Positions 1,882-10,178 of a stretch of DNA of 64,000 bases are shown one piece after another. The notes under the pieces are model-generated. The model was not told the origin of the DNA. It saw only the letters and a list, made by a program, of their open reading frames with translations, and did no database searches. The position numbers and the translations under genes are program-made. The stretch's first letter is position 1. Every line of letters begins with the position of its first letter. Origin of the DNA: Haloterrigena alkaliphila (GTDB taxonomy: Archaea > Halobacteriota > Halobacteria > Halobacteriales > Natrialbaceae); contig NZ_CP071462.1 of assembly GCF_017352155.2 (NCBI RefSeq), positions 2,356,001 to 2,420,000 on the forward strand, written 5' to 3'.

Positions 1882-3234
1882 TCATCGCTGTCTCGGTTCG
1901 GATCGGTCCGGCAGATGCTCGGCGTACGCGTCGTCGAAGCGGTGGCAGGCGATCGGATGGCCGTCACCGTCAGCGTCCTCGTCACCATTCTTATCACCGT
2001 CACCGTGGGTCTCGAGGTCCGGTCGGTCGGTCTCGCAGGGCGTCGAGAACGCGGCCGCGAGTCGCTCCCGTGCGGCGTCGACGTCGCCGGCGGCCGCCGC
2101 CTCGAGCGCGTTCGAGAGCGCGTCGTCGGCGGCTTCGTCGCGGAGTTCCGCCGGGATGTCGAACGCCTCGCGGATCGCTGCGGGGCGGTCCTCGGCGGCC
2201 GCCGGATCGGGCGACACCGACTCGAGCCCCGCGAGAACGTCGGTATCGCCATCGGCGTCGGCGAGTCGCTGCCGCAGGGAGAGCACGCCCCGAAACGTCT
2301 CGGGATCGAGGTCGTACTCCGCGGGCGGGACGGGGATCGGACAGCGAGTGTGGAACCGACAGCCCGAGGGGGGATCGGCCGGCGAGGGGACGTCCCCCTC
2401 GAGGACGATCCGATCGCCGTCCCACAGCGGATCGGGTTCTGGAATCGCCGAGCGCAGGGCGGCCGTGTAGGGGTGGACGTCGCCGGCGAACAGGTCCTCG
2501 GTCGGCCCGATTTCGACGATATCGCCGAGGTACATCACCGCGACGCGGTCGGCGACGTGCTCGATGACCGAGAGATCGTGGGCGATGAGGAGGTAGGTCA
2601 ATCCGAACTCCGCCTGCAGGTCCTCGAGCAGGTTGAGCAACTGAGCTTGGACCGAGACGTCCAGCGCGGAGACCGGCTCGTCGAGCACGATGAACTCCGG
2701 TTCGACGGCCAGCGCGCGGGCCAGACCGATGCGCTGGCGCTGGCCGCCGGAGAACTCGTGGGGGTACCGGGTCGCGTGGCTCGCCCGCAGCCCGACGGTC
2801 TCGAGCAGTTCGGCGACCCGCTCCTCGCGGTCCTCGGGGGGGACGATCTCGTGGACCGCGAGGGGTTCGCCGACGATGTCGGCGACCGGAAGCTGCGGGT
2901 TCAGGCTCTCCAGCGGGTCCTGAAAGACGTACTGGACGTCAGTCCGCAGTGACCGGAGGTCGGCCCTCGAGCGGTCGGTCACCTCGGTCCCGCGGTAGGT
3001 AACCGAGCCGGCGGTCGGTTCCGTGAGCCGCAGCAGCGAGCGGGCGAGGGAACTCTTCCCGCAGCCGCTCTCGCCGACCAGTCCGAGCGTCTCGCCCTCG
3101 TCGATCTCGAGGTCGACGCCGTCGACGGCCGTGACCTCCTGGACGGTGCCCAGCAGTCGGTCGAGGAAGCCGTCGGCGGTCGTATACCGCTTCTCGAGCC
3201 CCTCGATCCGGAGAAGGGGGTCGCGATCGCTCAC
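1882..3234 (-). CDS. Oligopeptide/dipeptide ABC transporter ATP-binding protein, F-type (OppF/DppF), with extended C-terminus
   Basis: 450 residues from a GTG that overlaps the stop of the upstream ATPase (GTGA). Walker A GESGCGKS is at 54-61, Q-loop 'VFQDPLESLNP' near 103, signature '[10 protein letters not shown]' at 161-170, Walker B 'FIVLDEP' at 181 and H-loop 'IAHDLSV'. It hydrolyses ATP at the inner membrane face to drive import through the two permeases. The C-terminal Oligo_HPY cysteines are C292 and C298, but the next two (C400, C430) lie about 100 residues further on. In a typical family member the second and third are about seven apart. The extra segment is acidic and alanine-rich. 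Confidence 0.93.
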   Translation of the reverse strand: MSDRDPLLRIEGLEKRYTTADGFLDRLLGTVQEVTAVDGVDLEIDEGETLGLVGESGCGKSSLARSLLRLTEPTAGSVTYRGTEVTDRSRADLRSLRTDVQYVFQDPLESLNPQLPVADIVGEPLAVHEIVPPEDREERVAELLETVGLRASHATRYPHEFSGGQRQRIGLARALAVEPEFIVLDEPVSALDVSVQAQLLNLLEDLQAEFGLTYLLIAHDLSVIEHVADRVAVMYLGDIVEIGPTEDLFAGDVHPYTAALRSAIPEPDPLWDGDRIVLEGDVPSPADPPSGCRFHTRCPIPVPPAEYDLDPETFRGVLSLRQRLADADGDTDVLAGLESVSPDPAAAEDRPAAIREAFDIPAELRDEAADDALSNALEAAAAGDVDAARERLAAAFSTPCETDRPDLETHGDGDKNGDEDADGDGHPIACHRFDDAYAEHLPDRSEPRQR

Positions 3235-4274
3235 TCGTCGTCACCCCTGACGGTGACCGCGTAGTCGAGGCCCGCCTCGAGGTCGCCGGTGTACTCGTGG
3301 CAGGCCGCGAGGTGGGCGTCCGGGTCGGCGTCCGCCGCGTCGACGCCCGTTTCGGCGTCGAGCAGCGCCGGGTCGCGCAGCGTGCAGACCTCCTCGGCGT
3401 ACGGACACCGCGGGTGGAATCGACAGCCGGTCGGCACCTGGACGAGGTCGGGCATCGTCCCCGGAATCGCCGGGAGGCGGTCGCGGTCGTCGCCGATCCG
3501 CGGAATCGAGGCCATGAGCCCGACCGTGTAGGGGTGTTTGGGATCGTAGTACAGCTCTTCGACCGTCGCCCGTTCGACGGCCCGCCCGGCGTACATGACC
3601 AGCACGCGGTCGCACCGCTCGGCGACGACGCCCAGGTCGTGGGTGACCAACTGGATCGCCGTCTCGAACTCCGCGGCGAGGTCCTCGAGCAACTCGAGGA
3701 TCTGGGCTTCGATGGTGACGTCCAGCCCCGTCGTCGGTTCGTCGCAGACGAGCAAGTCGGGGTCGCAGGACAGCGCCATCGCGATCACGGCCCGCTGTTG
3801 CATCCCGCCGGAGAACTCGTGGGGGTAGTCAGAATAGCGGCGCTCCGCGTCGGGGATGCCCACGCGCTCGAGGAGGTCGATCGCCCGCTCGCGGGCCGCG
3901 GCGTCGGTGACGTCCCGGTGGGCCCGGACCGCCTCGGCGATCTGCTCGCCGACGGTGTAGACGGGGTTGAGCGCCGCGCCGGCGTCCTGAAACACCATCG
4001 CGATCTCGTTGCCCCGGAGGTCGCGGAGGGCTTCGTCGGTGCACTCGAGTACGTTCCGGCCCTTGAACCGGATCTCGCCCTCGACGATCTCGCCCGGACC
4101 GTCGATCAACCGCAGTAACGAGAGACTCGCGACGCTCTTGCCGGCGCCGCTCTCGCCGACGATGCCGAGCGTCTCCCCGCGTTCGATCTCGTAGCTGAGG
4201 CCGTCGACCGCGCGGACGACGCCGTCCTCGGCGTAAAACTGGACGACGAGATCCTCGACCTCGAGCAGCGCCAC
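3231..4274 (-). CDS. Oligopeptide/dipeptide ABC transporter ATP-binding protein, D-type (OppD/DppD)
   Basis: 347 residues from a GTG two bases after the stop of the DppC-like permease gene. Earlier in-frame starts would lie inside that permease and give arginine-rich non-protein sequence, so this start is preferred. Walker A is 'GESGAGKS', the Q-loop 'MVFQDAGAALNPV', the signature 'EFSGGMQQRA', Walker B 'LLVCDEPT' and the H-loop 'VTHDLGV'. The C-terminal Oligo_HPY motif is standard: 'CRFHPRC', a third Cys seven residues on ('EEVCT') and a final 'ACH'. It pairs with the F-type ATPase to energise peptide uptake. Confidence 0.93.
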   Translation of the reverse strand: MALLEVEDLVVQFYAEDGVVRAVDGLSYEIERGETLGIVGESGAGKSVASLSLLRLIDGPGEIVEGEIRFKGRNVLECTDEALRDLRGNEIAMVFQDAGAALNPVYTVGEQIAEAVRAHRDVTDAAARERAIDLLERVGIPDAERRYSDYPHEFSGGMQQRAVIAMALSCDPDLLVCDEPTTGLDVTIEAQILELLEDLAAEFETAIQLVTHDLGVVAERCDRVLVMYAGRAVERATVEELYYDPKHPYTVGLMASIPRIGDDRDRLPAIPGTMPDLVQVPTGCRFHPRCPYAEEVCTLRDPALLDAETGVDAADADPDAHLAACHEYTGDLEAGLDYAVTVRGDDE

Positions 4275-4276
4275 GG

Positions 4277-5305
4277 TTATCGCACCCTCCGGGTTGCCGT
4301 CTCGCCGTGGGGATCGATCGCGTCGGCGATGCCGTCGCCGACGAGGTTGACCGCCATCACGAACAGGAAGATCGCGAGGCCGGGAAACGCCGTCGCGTGC
4401 CAGTGGCCGTTGGCGATCGCCGTGCGACTCCCCGAGAGCATCGCGCCCCACTCGGCCGTGCTGGGATCGAGTCCGAGGCCGAGGAAACCCAGCGCCGCGG
4501 CCGCGAGCACGACCGTACCGACGTTGAGGGTCGCCTGCACGATGACGGGCGCGATCGCGTTGGGGACGACGTGTCTGGCGATGACGATCCGATCGGGCGA
4601 CCCCAGCGCCTTCGCGGCCGTGACGTACTCGCGTTCCCTGACCGAGAGAATCTCGCCGCGCAGCAGGCGGGCGTAGCCGATCCAGCCGGTGAGCACGAGC
4701 GCGGCGACGATGTTCCAGTAGCCCCGCCCGAGCACGGAGACGATCCCGATCGCGAGCACGAGAAACGGGAACGCGTAGAGCGTATCGACGGTTCGCATGA
4801 CGAGTTCGTCGATCCAGCCGCCGAAGTAGCCGGCGATCGCCCCCAGCGGGACGCCGACGAGCACGGCGAGCGCGACGGCGACGACGCCGATACTGAGGCT
4901 GAATCGGCCGCCGACGAGGACGCGCGAGAACAGATCGCGCCCCGCCCAGTCGGTCCCGAACGGGTGGGAAAGCGACGGCCCGGCGTTTGCGGGACCGACG
5001 TAGACCGCGCTCGGATCGTACGGCGCCAGCGCGAACGGCTGGAGGGTGATCGTGTACCCCATCGTCGACACCTCGATCGGTCGCGCGAAAATCGCCACGA
5101 CCGCGAGCACCGCGACGATCCCGAGGCCGAGCACGGCCGTTCGGTTCGACCGGAACCGGCGCCAGGCGTCCTCGAGGCGGCTCCGGGTCGGTGGCTCCCG
5201 CTCGTCCGCCCAGACGTCGACGGTGCGGTCGGCGGCGACGGCCTCGCCGAACCCTTCGATTCGAATGCGGCCCCGTTCCGGCGTCGATCGATCGTCTCCC
5301 GTCAT
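4277..5305 (-). CDS. Oligopeptide/dipeptide ABC transporter permease, C-type (OppC/DppC)
   Basis: 342 residues. The ATG overlaps the stop of the B-type permease gene (ATGA), which fixes the start despite a longer open frame upstream. A cytoplasmic N-terminus of about 70 residues is followed by one membrane segment, then the BPD_transp_1 domain with five more. The family landmark 'HPFGTDWAGRDLFSRVL' sits before the permease core, and the ATPase-contacting loop reads 'YVTAAKALGSPDRIVIARHVVPN'. It forms half of the transmembrane channel with the neighbouring B-type permease. Confidence 0.93.
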   Translation of the reverse strand: MTGDDRSTPERGRIRIEGFGEAVAADRTVDVWADEREPPTRSRLEDAWRRFRSNRTAVLGLGIVAVLAVVAIFARPIEVSTMGYTITLQPFALAPYDPSAVYVGPANAGPSLSHPFGTDWAGRDLFSRVLVGGRFSLSIGVVAVALAVLVGVPLGAIAGYFGGWIDELVMRTVDTLYAFPFLVLAIGIVSVLGRGYWNIVAALVLTGWIGYARLLRGEILSVREREYVTAAKALGSPDRIVIARHVVPNAIAPVIVQATLNVGTVVLAAAALGFLGLGLDPSTAEWGAMLSGSRTAIANGHWHATAFPGLAIFLFVMAVNLVGDGIADAIDPHGETATRRVR

Positions 5306-6258
5306 GAGTGTCTGATTCGCGGATCGAGGTAGGAGTAGGCGATATCGACGAGCAGGTTCGCGAGGACCACCGAAACGGCGATCACGAGGACGCCCGCTTG
5401 TACGACCGGGACGTCCCGCCGATTGATCGCGTCGACCAGCAGTCGGCCCATGCCGGGCCAGGAGAACACCTGTTCGACGACGACCGCACCGTCGACGAGC
5501 ACGGCGATCTGGAGTCCCGCGACGGTCACGACGGCGATCAGGGAGTTCCGGAGGACGTGTTTCCAGATGACCGTCCGCTCGCGGAGCCCCTTCGCGCGTG
5601 CGGTGCGGACGTACTCGGCGTTCAGTTCCCGGAGCATCGACGAGCGCAACAGGCGCGCGACGAGCGCGGCGGTGGCCGTGCCCAGCGTGATCGTCGGCAA
5701 CACCAGAAACCACAGCGTGTCCGCACTGAGAAGGGGTGCGTCCGGAGGAATGACCGGGACCCACTCGAGGTGGACGCCGAAGACGAACAGGAGGAGCAAG
5801 CCGAGCCAGAAGTTCGGCGTCGCGATGCCGGCGAGGGCCGCGACGCGACTGACCTCGTCGGCGGTGTCGCCCCGGTTGACGGCCGCGACGACCCCCGCCG
5901 GAATCCCGATCGCCAGCGAGAGCACCCACGCCGCGCCGCCCAGCAAGAGCGTGTAGGGGAGCCGATCCGTGATCGTCGCCCCGACGTCGCGGCCGGTGAC
6001 CGGCGATTCCCCGAACTCGAGGGTGATCGCGTCGGCCAGCCACAGCAGATACTGTTCCCAGAGCGGACGATCGAGGTTGTACTCGGCGCGCAACGACTCC
6101 CTGACCGCCGGATCGACCCGCTGGAATCCGGTGACGACGTCGATCGGATCGCCCGGCGAGACGTGGAGCAACGAGAAGGTGAGCGCCGTCACACCCACCA
6201 GTACCGGGACCGTCACCAGCACCCGCTTGCCGACGTCGTTCGCGAGGGACATGGGCAC
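5302..6258 (-). CDS. Oligopeptide/dipeptide ABC transporter permease, B-type (OppB/DppB)
   Basis: 318 residues with six membrane segments. The N-terminal 'LLHVSPGDPIDV' and 'LREEYNLDRPLWEQYLLWL'-like stretch are hallmarks of OppB/DppB. The coupling loop for the ATPase is 'YVRTARAKGLRERTVIWKHV', and the C-terminus 'LVDIAYSYLDPRIR' is typical. Start is 'MPMSLAND'; the second Met two codons later is equally possible. The gene lies 27 nt after the binding-protein gene and overlaps the next permease by four bases, so it belongs to the five-gene minus-strand importer operon. Confidence 0.94.
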   Translation of the reverse strand: MPMSLANDVGKRVLVTVPVLVGVTALTFSLLHVSPGDPIDVVTGFQRVDPAVRESLRAEYNLDRPLWEQYLLWLADAITLEFGESPVTGRDVGATITDRLPYTLLLGGAAWVLSLAIGIPAGVVAAVNRGDTADEVSRVAALAGIATPNFWLGLLLLFVFGVHLEWVPVIPPDAPLLSADTLWFLVLPTITLGTATAALVARLLRSSMLRELNAEYVRTARAKGLRERTVIWKHVLRNSLIAVVTVAGLQIAVLVDGAVVVEQVFSWPGMGRLLVDAINRRDVPVVQAGVLVIAVSVVLANLLVDIAYSYLDPRIRHS

Positions 6259-6285: not shown

Positions 6286-7935
6286 TTAATTGAGATACTC
6301 GTCGACAATGTGCGCTTCGAATTCCGGATCGACGAACTGCTCGAGGAGCGGGGGAATCGGCGTGTAGGCCGGGCTACCGGCGCCGTGGAACACGTCCTCG
6401 ACGATCCGGTCGCGCGGGACGAGCATCCCGATTCCGCGGCGGACCTTTCGGTTGGTGAACGGCTCGAGGTAGCACGGAAATCCGAGGAAGTCGACGCCCC
6501 CGCTGAGCGTTCGATCGACGACGTACTCGTCGTCCGCCTCGTAGGCCTCGAGCGATCCGTTCGGGAGGCCGATAGTCAGGTGCGTCTCGCCGGTCTCGAG
6601 CGCCGCGCGGCGCGAGGATCCTTCGGGAATGATTCGTAGAGTGATCGTCTCGATCGGCGGCGTTTCGGGGACGTCGCCGCTGCCGTCGTACCAGTGGGAG
6701 TCGTTGGCTTCCATCCGCCAGAGTCGGCCCTCCTGGTGTTCGACGAACCGGTACGGGCCGGTCCCGACCGGCCGCTGGGAGAGATCGACGCTCCCGTCGG
6801 CGACGGCGCTCGGAACGATCGGCACCCCCGAGAGTATCGTTTCCAGGGGTCCGTACGGTCGGGTGAGACTGACCTCGATCCGGTAGTCGTCGAGGATCTC
6901 CATTCCGTCGTACCAGTCGTAGACGTCGTGTTCTCGGGGCGTTTCCTCGTACCGTTCGAACGTCGTCCGGACGTCTTCGGCGGTGAACTCGTCGCCGGTG
7001 TGAAAGGTGACGCCCTCGCGCAGGTCGAAGCGGTAGGTCGTCTCGTCGATCCGGCGCCAGTCGGTCGCGAGGGACGGCCGAACGCTCCCGTCGAAGTCGA
7101 CCTCGAGGAGCGATTCGTAGATCAGTCCGGTGACCATGCCCGAGGTGTCGTCGTTGATCGTGGTCGGGTCGTAGCTGCTGATCCCCGTTCCGACGTCGCC
7201 GATAAGTTCGTCCTCGCCGGTGGTGAGTTCCGTGTAGACGCCGAGCGTCGGCGCGTAGATCGACGTGTACTCGTCGCCGGTTATCGGATACGTTCGGAAG
7301 CCGTCGATAGCGTCGGCCCGGTAGACGACGATCTCCTCGTGTGAGCGGACGAACGAGAACGGCGACGCTTCGACGAGCAGTTCCTGGAGTTCCTCGTAGA
7401 TTTCGACGCGCTCGTCGGTGTCGGATTCCCTGACGCCGTCCTCGATGAGCCGGTCGACGGCTTCGTTTTCGAAGTGACTGATATTGAGTCCGTTCGGGGC
7501 GAAATTGTCGGAGTGAAAGGCGGGATAGACGTAGGAGTGGGGGTCCCAGCCGCCGACGAGTCCCAGACAGATCAGGGCGTTCTCCTCCTCGGCGGCCATA
7601 CTGTTGACCAGATCGAGATACTCGGTGAACGCGATCTGCCTGAACGATACGTCGAACAGGTCGGTCGAGTCCAGTTCGTTCTGCACCAGCTGCGCCCACC
7701 TGACGCGCGCCTCCGTCTCGGAATTCGCGTAGATCGTCGTCTCGACCGGCGGCTCGACGCCCTCCTCTTTGAATCCCTCGTAGATGAGTTCCTCGGCCTC
7801 GCCGTCAACGTCGACGTCGCCGCCGGTACTGATACAGCCGGCGAGTCCAGCGATCCCGAGGGCGCCGACTCCCTCGAGAACTGGTCGACGAGGTAGTTGC
7901 GTAGAGTCGCTATCGCCAGTACCTGGCATTGCCAT
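6286..7935 (-). CDS. Peptide/nickel-type ABC transporter substrate-binding lipoprotein with apparently circularly permuted domain order
   Basis: 549 residues, first gene of the minus-strand importer. An arginine pair (16-17) before a hydrophobic stretch and lipobox 'LAGC' (Cys34) mark a membrane-anchored lipoprotein, probably Tat-exported. After the anchor, residues about 45-230 match the part that normally ends an SBP_bac_5 protein: 'WDPHSYVYPAFHSD', 'YEELQELLVEASPF', 'AIDGFRTYPI'. Residues about 241-549 match the part that normally begins it: 'YDPTTINDDTSGMV..LIYE', 'LREGVTFHTGDEFTAEDV', 'PVGTGPYRF', 'VRRGIGMLVPRDRIVEDVF'. The protein stops where the missing half would follow. The binding protein at 8406 has the usual order. 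The start may instead be the third codon (MPGTG). Confidence 0.9.
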   Translation of the reverse strand: MAMPGTGDSDSTQLPRRPVLEGVGALGIAGLAGCISTGGDVDVDGEAEELIYEGFKEEGVEPPVETTIYANSETEARVRWAQLVQNELDSTDLFDVSFRQIAFTEYLDLVNSMAAEEENALICLGLVGGWDPHSYVYPAFHSDNFAPNGLNISHFENEAVDRLIEDGVRESDTDERVEIYEELQELLVEASPFSFVRSHEEIVVYRADAIDGFRTYPITGDEYTSIYAPTLGVYTELTTGEDELIGDVGTGISSYDPTTINDDTSGMVTGLIYESLLEVDFDGSVRPSLATDWRRIDETTYRFDLREGVTFHTGDEFTAEDVRTTFERYEETPREHDVYDWYDGMEILDDYRIEVSLTRPYGPLETILSGVPIVPSAVADGSVDLSQRPVGTGPYRFVEHQEGRLWRMEANDSHWYDGSGDVPETPPIETITLRIIPEGSSRRAALETGETHLTIGLPNGSLEAYEADDEYVVDRTLSGGVDFLGFPCYLEPFTNRKVRRGIGMLVPRDRIVEDVFHGAGSPAYTPIPPLLEQFVDPEFEAHIVDEYLN

Positions 7936-8405
7936 CTGGTTGTTATCCCGGTGGCATATTCCTTGTGACTGGGTTATTTTATCACTTCGTCGGAGTAATT
8001 CTGTACCGATACTCGTGGAACGAGTGATGACAGGGACGCGGTCGCGCCATCTAGCCGGCTATCTGCCGATGCGCGACAGTCTCAAACGGTTACCCGTTGA
8101 AACGAGTGCAGAACTCTCGTTAGCAGCGACCCTGCTGTTCGTCCTGGGGAGCACTCGCGCTTGGCGTCGCCCTCAAACTCGGATTCGCATCTTCCCGCTC
8201 CTTCTCTCTTCACGATCGGAATATCAATTCCACCCATATAGTTATCAACCGGTTGTTGGAGTGCTTATTTAATACCTCTACGCGTACAATGAGAGAGATA
8301 TGCAATGTAAGATTGGATAGTGTAAGCAGTATGGGTACAACGTCTGACACTAGATCCAAAACAAAACAAAAATTTATATAATTCCCGTCACTCATGCCAC
8401 TCGGT
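7936..8405. promoter_or_regulatory. Divergent AT-rich promoter region between two peptide ABC transporter operons
   Basis: This 470-base gap separates two head-to-head transporter operons. No convincing gene lies in it. The part from about 8200 to 8400 is far richer in A and T than the coding DNA around it. For the minus-strand operon, an AT-rich stretch (TTATTTTAT, 7974-7982) could serve as TATA box. The plus-strand box is listed separately. The long shared region could hold sites that regulate both operons; I see no perfect palindrome in it. Confidence 0.6.
8373..8380 (+). promoter_or_regulatory. TATA box of the plus-strand peptide transporter operon
   Basis: TTTATATA lies in an A-rich stretch, centred about 30 nt before the ATG at 8406. 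Archaeal transcription starts 25-30 nt downstream of the box, so the transcript would begin almost at that ATG. This favours 8406 over the in-frame ATG at 8394 as the true start. Confidence 0.7.
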
Positions 8406-10178
8406 ATGTCAAGAGAAACCGACCTCTCGCGACGGACGTTTCTGAAAGCCACTGGCTCCGGTGCCGCGGTGGCGACGGTAGCGGGCTGTCTCACCGGTGA
8501 TCCGGACGAAGGTAGCGACAACGAACTGAACCTGATTAACTCGACGGTCACGACGCTCGATCCGATCCAGTCGACGGACACGGCGTCCGGCCAGATCGTC
8601 AAGCAAGTGTACGAAGCGCTCACGTACTATCCGAACGGCGAAAGCAGCGTGGAGAACCTGCTCGCCGAGGACGTCGAGATTTCGGACGACCTGCTGACGT
8701 ACACGTTCACGCTCGCGGACGCCGAGTTCCACAACGGTGACCCGCTCACGGCCGACGACTTCGTCTACTCGCTGCGTCGACTGGCCGAATCGCCGAACAG
8801 CGAGCGAGCGAACTTCGTCCTCGAAGATACCTTCCTCTCCGTCGAACACGAGGTAGAGGGCGAGGAACTCGTTCCGGACTCGCTCGGCGTCGAAGCGGTC
8901 GACGACCAGACGCTGGAGATCCGACTCGAGACGCCCCACCCGAACGCGCTCGAACTGCTCGCCTACGACTCGTTCTCGGCGGTCCCCGAGGGGCTCGTCG
9001 GCGATATCGAAGGGTACGACGGCGAGATCGAGCACGACGAGTTCTCGACCGAGACCATGATCGGTACCGGACCGTTCGAGTTCGACACGTGGGAGCCCGA
9101 CGCGGAGGCCCGCGTCACTCGGTTCGACGACTACCACGGCAGCACCGCCAACGTCGAGGCCGTCCACTGGCAGATCATCGAGGACGACGACGCCGGGTAC
9201 ACGTACGCGATGGAGCGCAACGCCGACATCTTCGGCCCCGGCGGCGGGATGCCGACGGCCCAGTACGACCCGAACAAGGTCGACGCCGAGACGGACGACC
9301 TCGGCCGTTCGGTCGGTAGCTACGGTCCGATCGAGAACGGCGATACGGTCGAGTACGTCGGCGTTCCCCAGCTCTCGACGTACTACGTCGCGTTCAACGC
9401 GCCGTCCGTACCGCGACCCGTCCGACGCGCGATCGCGTACGTGACTGACCACGAGGAACTCATCGCCGAGGTCTTCAAGGAGCGCGGCGAGGAGGCGTGG
9501 ACGTTCACGCCGCCGGGCGCGTTCCCCGGCGGACAGGAACAGTACGAGAGCTTCATCGAGGACTACCCGTACGGCGCCAACGAGACGGACCGTGACGCCG
9601 CCCGCCAGGTGCTCGAGGACGCCGGCTACACGTCGGACGATCCGTACGAACTGACGCTGACGACCTACGAGTCCGAGGTCTTCCAGGAGTTCGGCCGCCT
9701 CACCCGGGACAAACTCTCCGGGCTCGGCGTCGACCTCTCGCTCGAGCAGTCACCGTTCGCGACGCTCATCGAGCGCGGTGAGAACGGCGAGCTCGACTTC
9801 TACTCGCTCGGCTGGACGTGGAGCTGGCCGGCGGCCGACTACGGGATGTTCGGCTTCGAGCCGGAGAACACGGACACCTCGCGCATGCCCGAGGAGACGA
9901 ACGGCTACTACCTCGACTGGCACCGCGAGGACTCCGACGCCTCGGCGCAGGCCCAGGGGGCCTGGGAGCGCGTCGAAGCCAATCCGGACCCCGACGCGCA
10001 GGACGTCCGTGACGAAGCCTACCTCGAGATGGAGCGAGCGGTCTGGGACGACGCCGTCATGATTCCGCTGCTCCACGACCTCGAAGAACGGTTCATCTAC
10101 GACTACGTCGACGTCGAACCGTTCGGTGCGATGGGTGCCTACCAGCAGCGGTTCAACAACGTCTCGCTGGACGAGTAG
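8406..10178 (+). CDS. Peptide/nickel-type ABC transporter substrate-binding lipoprotein (SBP_bac_5), canonical order
   Basis: 590 residues. The N-terminus has a textbook Tat motif 'SRRTFLKATG' (RR at 9-10) and lipobox 'VAGC' (Cys28). The SBP_bac_5 fold runs in the usual order: 'STVTTLDPIQSTD..SGQIVKQVYE', 'FHNGDPLTADDFVYSLRRL', 'MIGTGPFEF', 'PVRRAIAYVTDHEELIAEVF', and finally 'WSWPAADYGMFGF' and 'EMERAVWDDAVMIPLLHD'. It captures the ligand, probably peptides, outside the cell and feeds the permeases encoded next. An earlier in-frame ATG at 8394 is disfavoured by the promoter position. Confidence 0.95.
   Translation: MSRETDLSRRTFLKATGSGAAVATVAGCLTGDPDEGSDNELNLINSTVTTLDPIQSTDTASGQIVKQVYEALTYYPNGESSVENLLAEDVEISDDLLTYTFTLADAEFHNGDPLTADDFVYSLRRLAESPNSERANFVLEDTFLSVEHEVEGEELVPDSLGVEAVDDQTLEIRLETPHPNALELLAYDSFSAVPEGLVGDIEGYDGEIEHDEFSTETMIGTGPFEFDTWEPDAEARVTRFDDYHGSTANVEAVHWQIIEDDDAGYTYAMERNADIFGPGGGMPTAQYDPNKVDAETDDLGRSVGSYGPIENGDTVEYVGVPQLSTYYVAFNAPSVPRPVRRAIAYVTDHEELIAEVFKERGEEAWTFTPPGAFPGGQEQYESFIEDYPYGANETDRDAARQVLEDAGYTSDDPYELTLTTYESEVFQEFGRLTRDKLSGLGVDLSLEQSPFATLIERGENGELDFYSLGWTWSWPAADYGMFGFEPENTDTSRMPEETNGYYLDWHREDSDASAQAQGAWERVEANPDPDAQDVRDEAYLEMERAVWDDAVMIPLLHDLEERFIYDYVDVEPFGAMGAYQQRFNNVSLDE

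Follow-up and report, generated by a model that had tools for sequence, protein, structure and literature searches.

To our knowledge, natural circular permutation is mostly known from single events between distant relatives. Among the binding proteins of ABC importers, the CPSARST study reports circular permutation among glycine betaine-binding proteins, molybdate-binding proteins and CysB (PMC2395249). Permutation among other binding proteins is thus already published; the case of SBP_bac_5 is apparently unreported in the literature searched, in which we found no published permutation of this family, most subscription journals lying outside that search. Here we analyzed P0001, a 549-aa ORF at positions 6286-7935 on the minus strand of a 64,000-nucleotide stretch of Haloterrigena alkaliphila (NZ_CP071462.1), hereafter the window; the initial annotation had placed the gene correctly, without giving its strand. 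We consider it very likely that P0001 is a natural circular permutant of an SBP_bac_5 (OppA/DppA/NikA type) lipoprotein that acts as receptor for the Dpp/Opp-type importer directly downstream, although no binding or uptake data exist. The permutation itself had been proposed from the letters alone, and is now backed by sequence comparison, structure prediction and phylogeny.

We name the normal order of the family a-b-c, where a corresponds to P0001 residues 241-300, b to residues 301-538 and c to residues 45-230. The protein starts with a Tat signal peptide, whose RR motif is at 16-17, and with the lipobox LAGC, the cysteine of which is Cys34 (7834..7935; this and the following features are on the minus strand), identified from the translation and from aligned orthologues, among which R16 and R17 are invariant and Cys34 nearly so. 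The same orthologues indicate that the true start is probably Met3, at position 7929. Block c, the C-terminal part of a normal SBP_bac_5, then occupies residues 45-230 (7246..7803), as delimited by profile, PDB and sister alignments, and a linker of residues about 231-240 (7216..7245) leads from the old C-terminus to the old N-terminus. Block a, residues 241-300 (7036..7215), is the old N-terminal segment, and block b, residues 301-549 plus the stop codon (6286..7035), is the old middle part, which ends in the helix preceding the cut.

P0001 belongs to SBP_bac_5 (PF00496) with 203.3 bits against a curated cut-off of 32.4, this being its only Pfam match above cut-off, and it lacks a collinear match to that profile in the usual order. 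Aligning the two halves separately, as had been suggested, gave the swapped profile order: residues 285-537 match profile positions 2-257 (E 2e-56 for that half alone), and residues 55-145, in the front half, match positions 281-366, weakly on their own (E 0.017). The front half is also matched by the C-terminal ends of two NCBIfam models, GsiB (421-504, E 3e-6) and Opp4A (477-534, E 5e-5). A phmmer comparison with PDB entry 5u4o is likewise swapped, query residues 255-529 matching chain residues 57-331 and query residues 61-194 matching chain residues 360-487. Against L134, a normal-order haloarchaeal sister, the two blocks align in opposite order with 47.6% identity over 307 aa (E 1e-98) and 39.5% identity over 190 aa (E 7e-47), matches that are far beyond chance; both P0001 blocks are also matched, in opposite order, in the normal-order relatives. 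PF00496, NCBIfam, 5u4o and L134 therefore agree with the original assignment of residues 45-230 to the C-terminal part of the family and of residues 241-549 to its N-terminal part. The remark that P0001 stops at a helix holds as well: in the normal-order sister, the helix at its end (537-548) is followed by the one at its start (46-58).

The completeness of the fold was judged from the helix and strand lists of AlphaFold2 models of P0001 and L134, which are predicted and not solved structures. With a 50-row alignment, P0001 is predicted as a single fold (pLDDT 89.8, pTM 0.86) with low confidence solely at residues 1-39, and the L134 control reached pLDDT 85.3 and pTM 0.81. The two lists are circular shifts of one another, the cut falling at L134 residues 374-376, so that the structure prediction asked for in the initial annotation gives one confident fold with the expected order of elements. 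Solved OppA/DppA-type proteins in the PDB can be aligned with the L134 model along its whole length, over ~500-530 columns with a TMt of 0.82-0.88 in most top hits. The sequential Foldseek alignment of the P0001 model covers ~230-260 columns in most top hits, about half of it, with TM 0.37-0.44; this low score is uninformative alone, because Foldseek cannot align permuted chains end to end, and a half-length alignment is what would be expected of a permutant, without being direct proof of a full fold. No solved chain in the permuted c-a-b order was found among the best 60 PDB matches to the permuted-family profile, of which none is collinear with c-a-b and whose best stretch lies in the a-b part.

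In the model, P0001 is cut between two second-lobe helices, and a short linker connects the old termini. We interpret the long strands 193-206 and 471-485 as the two hinge crossings, and neither is broken; within the limits of the predicted models, the computation thus shows all structural elements to be present and both long hinge strands to be whole. A profile match to OppA (1b05) puts the cut near OppA residue 350, which falls inside domain III, taken by us to comprise residues 271-486; the new termini and the lipid anchor are therefore placed in lobe 2, and we infer that the anchor has shifted there from lobe 1. Of the changed hinge or anchor position suggested at first, the hinge part does not stand, since the cut is within lobe 2 and both hinge strands are whole, and the anchor part stands as an anatomical inference only. 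The computation shows a chain that starts in the loop between the two second-lobe helices, reaches the old C-terminus, crosses by the linker to the old N-terminus and ends at the pre-cut helix. Because the Tat signal and the lipid remain N-terminal, the protein would be tethered via lobe 2 and not via lobe 1. It may close on its ligand like other SBPs, an inference that includes binding itself, for which there are no data.

P0001 heads an intact operon in the order SBP, DppB, DppC, DppD, DppF. All on the minus strand, these are a DppB-type permease (5302..6258; Pfam BPD_transp_1, E 2e-45) starting 27 bp after the P0001 stop, a DppC-type permease (4277..5305; OppC_N, BPD_transp_1), a DppD-type ATPase (3231..4274; ABC_tran, oligo_HPY) and a DppF-type ATPase (1882..3234; ABC_tran, oligo_HPY), the last three genes overlapping by 4 bp each. 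With BPD_transp_1, OppC_N, ABC_tran and oligo_HPY genes directly downstream, P0001 has the partners of a Dpp/Opp-type SBP. Across the loci with enough flank, a DppB-like permease comes next after 107 of the 135 c-a-b genes and 93 of the 113 a-b-c genes, as it does after the single b-c-a gene. The permuted gene could nevertheless be a decaying or non-functional by-product, the importer being served by another SBP: the substrate, whether peptide, metal chelate or other, is unidentified, there are no binding or expression data, and one orthologue (L089, G103:C5:154990-156583) is present as two ORFs, split near the c-a linker by frameshift or fission. We regard this as very unlikely, given that P0001 stands at the head of a tightly packed permease-permease-ATPase-ATPase operon, that the gene is open and full-length in about 40 genomes at 42-69% identity, and that a normal-order relative precedes a related permease, 63% identical.

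Two further SBP genes lie close by in the window. The SBP_bac_5 gene of the neighbouring importer (8394..10178, plus strand) is in normal order a-b-c (as L044), with a single collinear PF00496 match at 2-360, as the initial annotation had held when using it for comparison. Its block c is only weakly recognized by the profile (E 8e-3), and its C-terminal part is thus diverged. Positions 1-319 cover the final part of another permuted SBP gene, L047 (plus strand), which belongs to an older c-a-b lineage; ~1.6 kb separates it from the gene with which the P0001 operon closes.

A rival reading is a chimera, in which the tail of one SBP was joined to the head of another with a different history. SBP genes can indeed fuse, as L124 (G228:C18) shows: in this single ORF of 1026 aa, one signal peptide is followed by two complete copies of a-b-c that are 68% identical to each other. 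A doubly trimmed tandem pair is the likely path to permutation as well. Across 53 members, the identity of a pair in one half tracks its identity in the other (Spearman 0.86; 0.83 when only pairs that differ in order are taken), so that both halves share one history. In addition, L270, which is c-a-b, and L279, which is a-b-c, are 72.7% identical in each of the swapped blocks; the two come from separate genera within a family. The chimera reading was rejected on the congruence of the half identities, and we give it almost no credence. In the L270/L279 pair, the signal peptides are 81% and the downstream permeases 86% identical, and in the DNA the upstream stretch, the gene start and the permease are collinear, only the two intragenic blocks trading places. 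The presence of the two genes at matching places before near-identical permeases suggests, without proving it, that both orders work. For P0001 as a circular permutant, we infer that the permutation may have arisen from a fused tandem duplication of which both ends were trimmed behind the retained signal peptide. L124 has the topology expected for permutation by duplication; for P0001 this route is an inference only, and it has been directly shown for no permuted gene.

To place P0001 among its relatives, fetched SBP genes were classified by profiles iterated from it, giving 124 c-a-b, 88 a-b-c, 1 b-c-a and 1 a-b-c-a-b-c genes and a further 15 in which a segment was truncated or missed. These counts are not natural frequencies, because the searches started from permuted queries and loci also overlap. 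The close relatives of P0001 (42-69% identity) reach the full permuted length in their roughly 40 genomes, all of the same family, and those whose order was read are c-a-b. In the H. alkaliphila genome, 6 SBP_bac_5 genes were found, 3 normal and 3 c-a-b. The older c-a-b lineage (L047, L048, L070, L140, L158 and others) comprises many haloarchaeal genes plus bacteria, namely Nitratireductor, Neorhizobium, Roseibium, Maritalea, Ketogulonicigenium and Halomonas socia, and occurs in MAGs labelled Spirochaetaceae and Micromonosporaceae. The initial guess that many haloarchaeal homologues share the form was right but understated, as the survey of homologues found permuted forms in several lineages, with several independent permutations, and also in bacteria.

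Several individual genes stand out in this set. The third order, b-c-a, is represented by a single haloarchaeal protein from an incomplete genome (L013:619-2520, minus strand, G038), which has a Tat signal and a lipobox; no second b-c-a gene was found in 2 genomes of the G038 family. The permuted SBP L120 (G318) has the C-terminus TPGFGVIAVIAGVMAATYLLRRRR, which resembles a PGF-CTERM anchor signal, and the protein may therefore be anchored C-terminally. Two bacterial permuted SBPs, L140 and L143, belong to complete ABC operons; hydantoinase/oxoprolinase and M28 peptidase genes lie nearby and give a hint of their substrates.

An alternative history traces every permuted SBP to one ancient permutation, which P0001 would have inherited, and takes the normal-order relatives to be reversions. 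Trees were built from concatenated alignments that are independent of part order. On these trees the permuted order is clustered, and a single clade of the genes with the P0001 cut site is not rejected (p 0.18), so one origin for these genes remains compatible with the data. Placing all c-a-b genes in a single clade is rejected (AU p 3e-61), as is, in a denser tree around the window clade, a single grouping of the c-a-b genes that the window clade contains (p 1e-49); at least 8 order changes are needed in the 128-row tree and at least 7 in the denser tree of 73 rows. These tests reject monophyly, not one gain followed by several reversions, and the argument against reversion is therefore carried by the cut sites, which differ among groups. 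The cut falls between two helices in the P0001 group, after the second of those helices in permuted group C, after a further short strand in most of the older lineage, and in the a/b insertion in L013, in agreement with separate origins. We thus hold a single ancient permutation to be unlikely.

Some groupings stay less certain. The older lineage and L120/L121 as a single clade are not rejected (p 0.13), and L120/L121 are for that reason not counted as an extra event; group C as a single clade is rejected (p 0.0035), so that repeated gain or reversion is not excluded there. All these p-values are guides only, since the groups were named with the tree already in view. A cautious reading is three c-a-b origins and one b-c-a origin, with further switches within group C. 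In the window clade, the normal order occurs along with two permuted versions that are cut differently and a single instance of a third order, and the computation shows that the order of P0001 arose independently of the older permuted lineage, within a haloarchaeal clade.

These results show permutation recurring within a single transporter family that is large and well studied, and a pair of 73% identity straddles the switch at matching loci. As a tentative proposal, which we find possible but doubtful, the part order of the receptor would be evolutionarily switchable in the window clade, where normal, two differently cut permuted and third-order forms precede related transporters; the tethered lobe would change with it, and usefulness would be at least part of why the switch is retained. 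With this recurrence and the L270/L279 pair, the mechanism of permutation and the choice between selection and neutrality become accessible to tests, and the importance of the lipid anchor position for importers is put in question. Domain matches bound to one order miss half of such permuted SBPs, which make up 3 of the 6 SBP_bac_5 genes found in this genome. Natural permutants are also useful comparisons for biosensor designs in which binding proteins are permuted.

Compared with known systems, P0001 shares with the proteins of the CPSARST study (PMC2395249) a natural permutation among ABC importer binding proteins. That study concerns other families, with <24% pairwise identity and detected by structure comparison, and is not known to describe a close pair at matching loci such as L270/L279; P0001, with its PF00496 match alone, is not a member by sequence of the permuted glycine betaine/molybdate family. 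The older permuted lineage (among others L047, L070, L140 and L158) resembles P0001 in being c-a-b, in belonging to SBP_bac_5 and in lying mostly beside ABC permeases, and differs in forming a separate clade, in being cut farther downstream and in including bacteria. The normal-order haloarchaeal sisters L134, L280, L272 and L011 are a-b-c and, unlike P0001, carry the lipid anchor beside the old N-terminus; L134 has the same set of helices and strands, next to the 63% identical permease. With SBP_bac_5, or cluster C (OppA, DppA, NikA, AppA; PF00496), P0001 shares homology over the whole fold and the same operon partners, and it differs from it by its swapped parts, with new termini in the second lobe.
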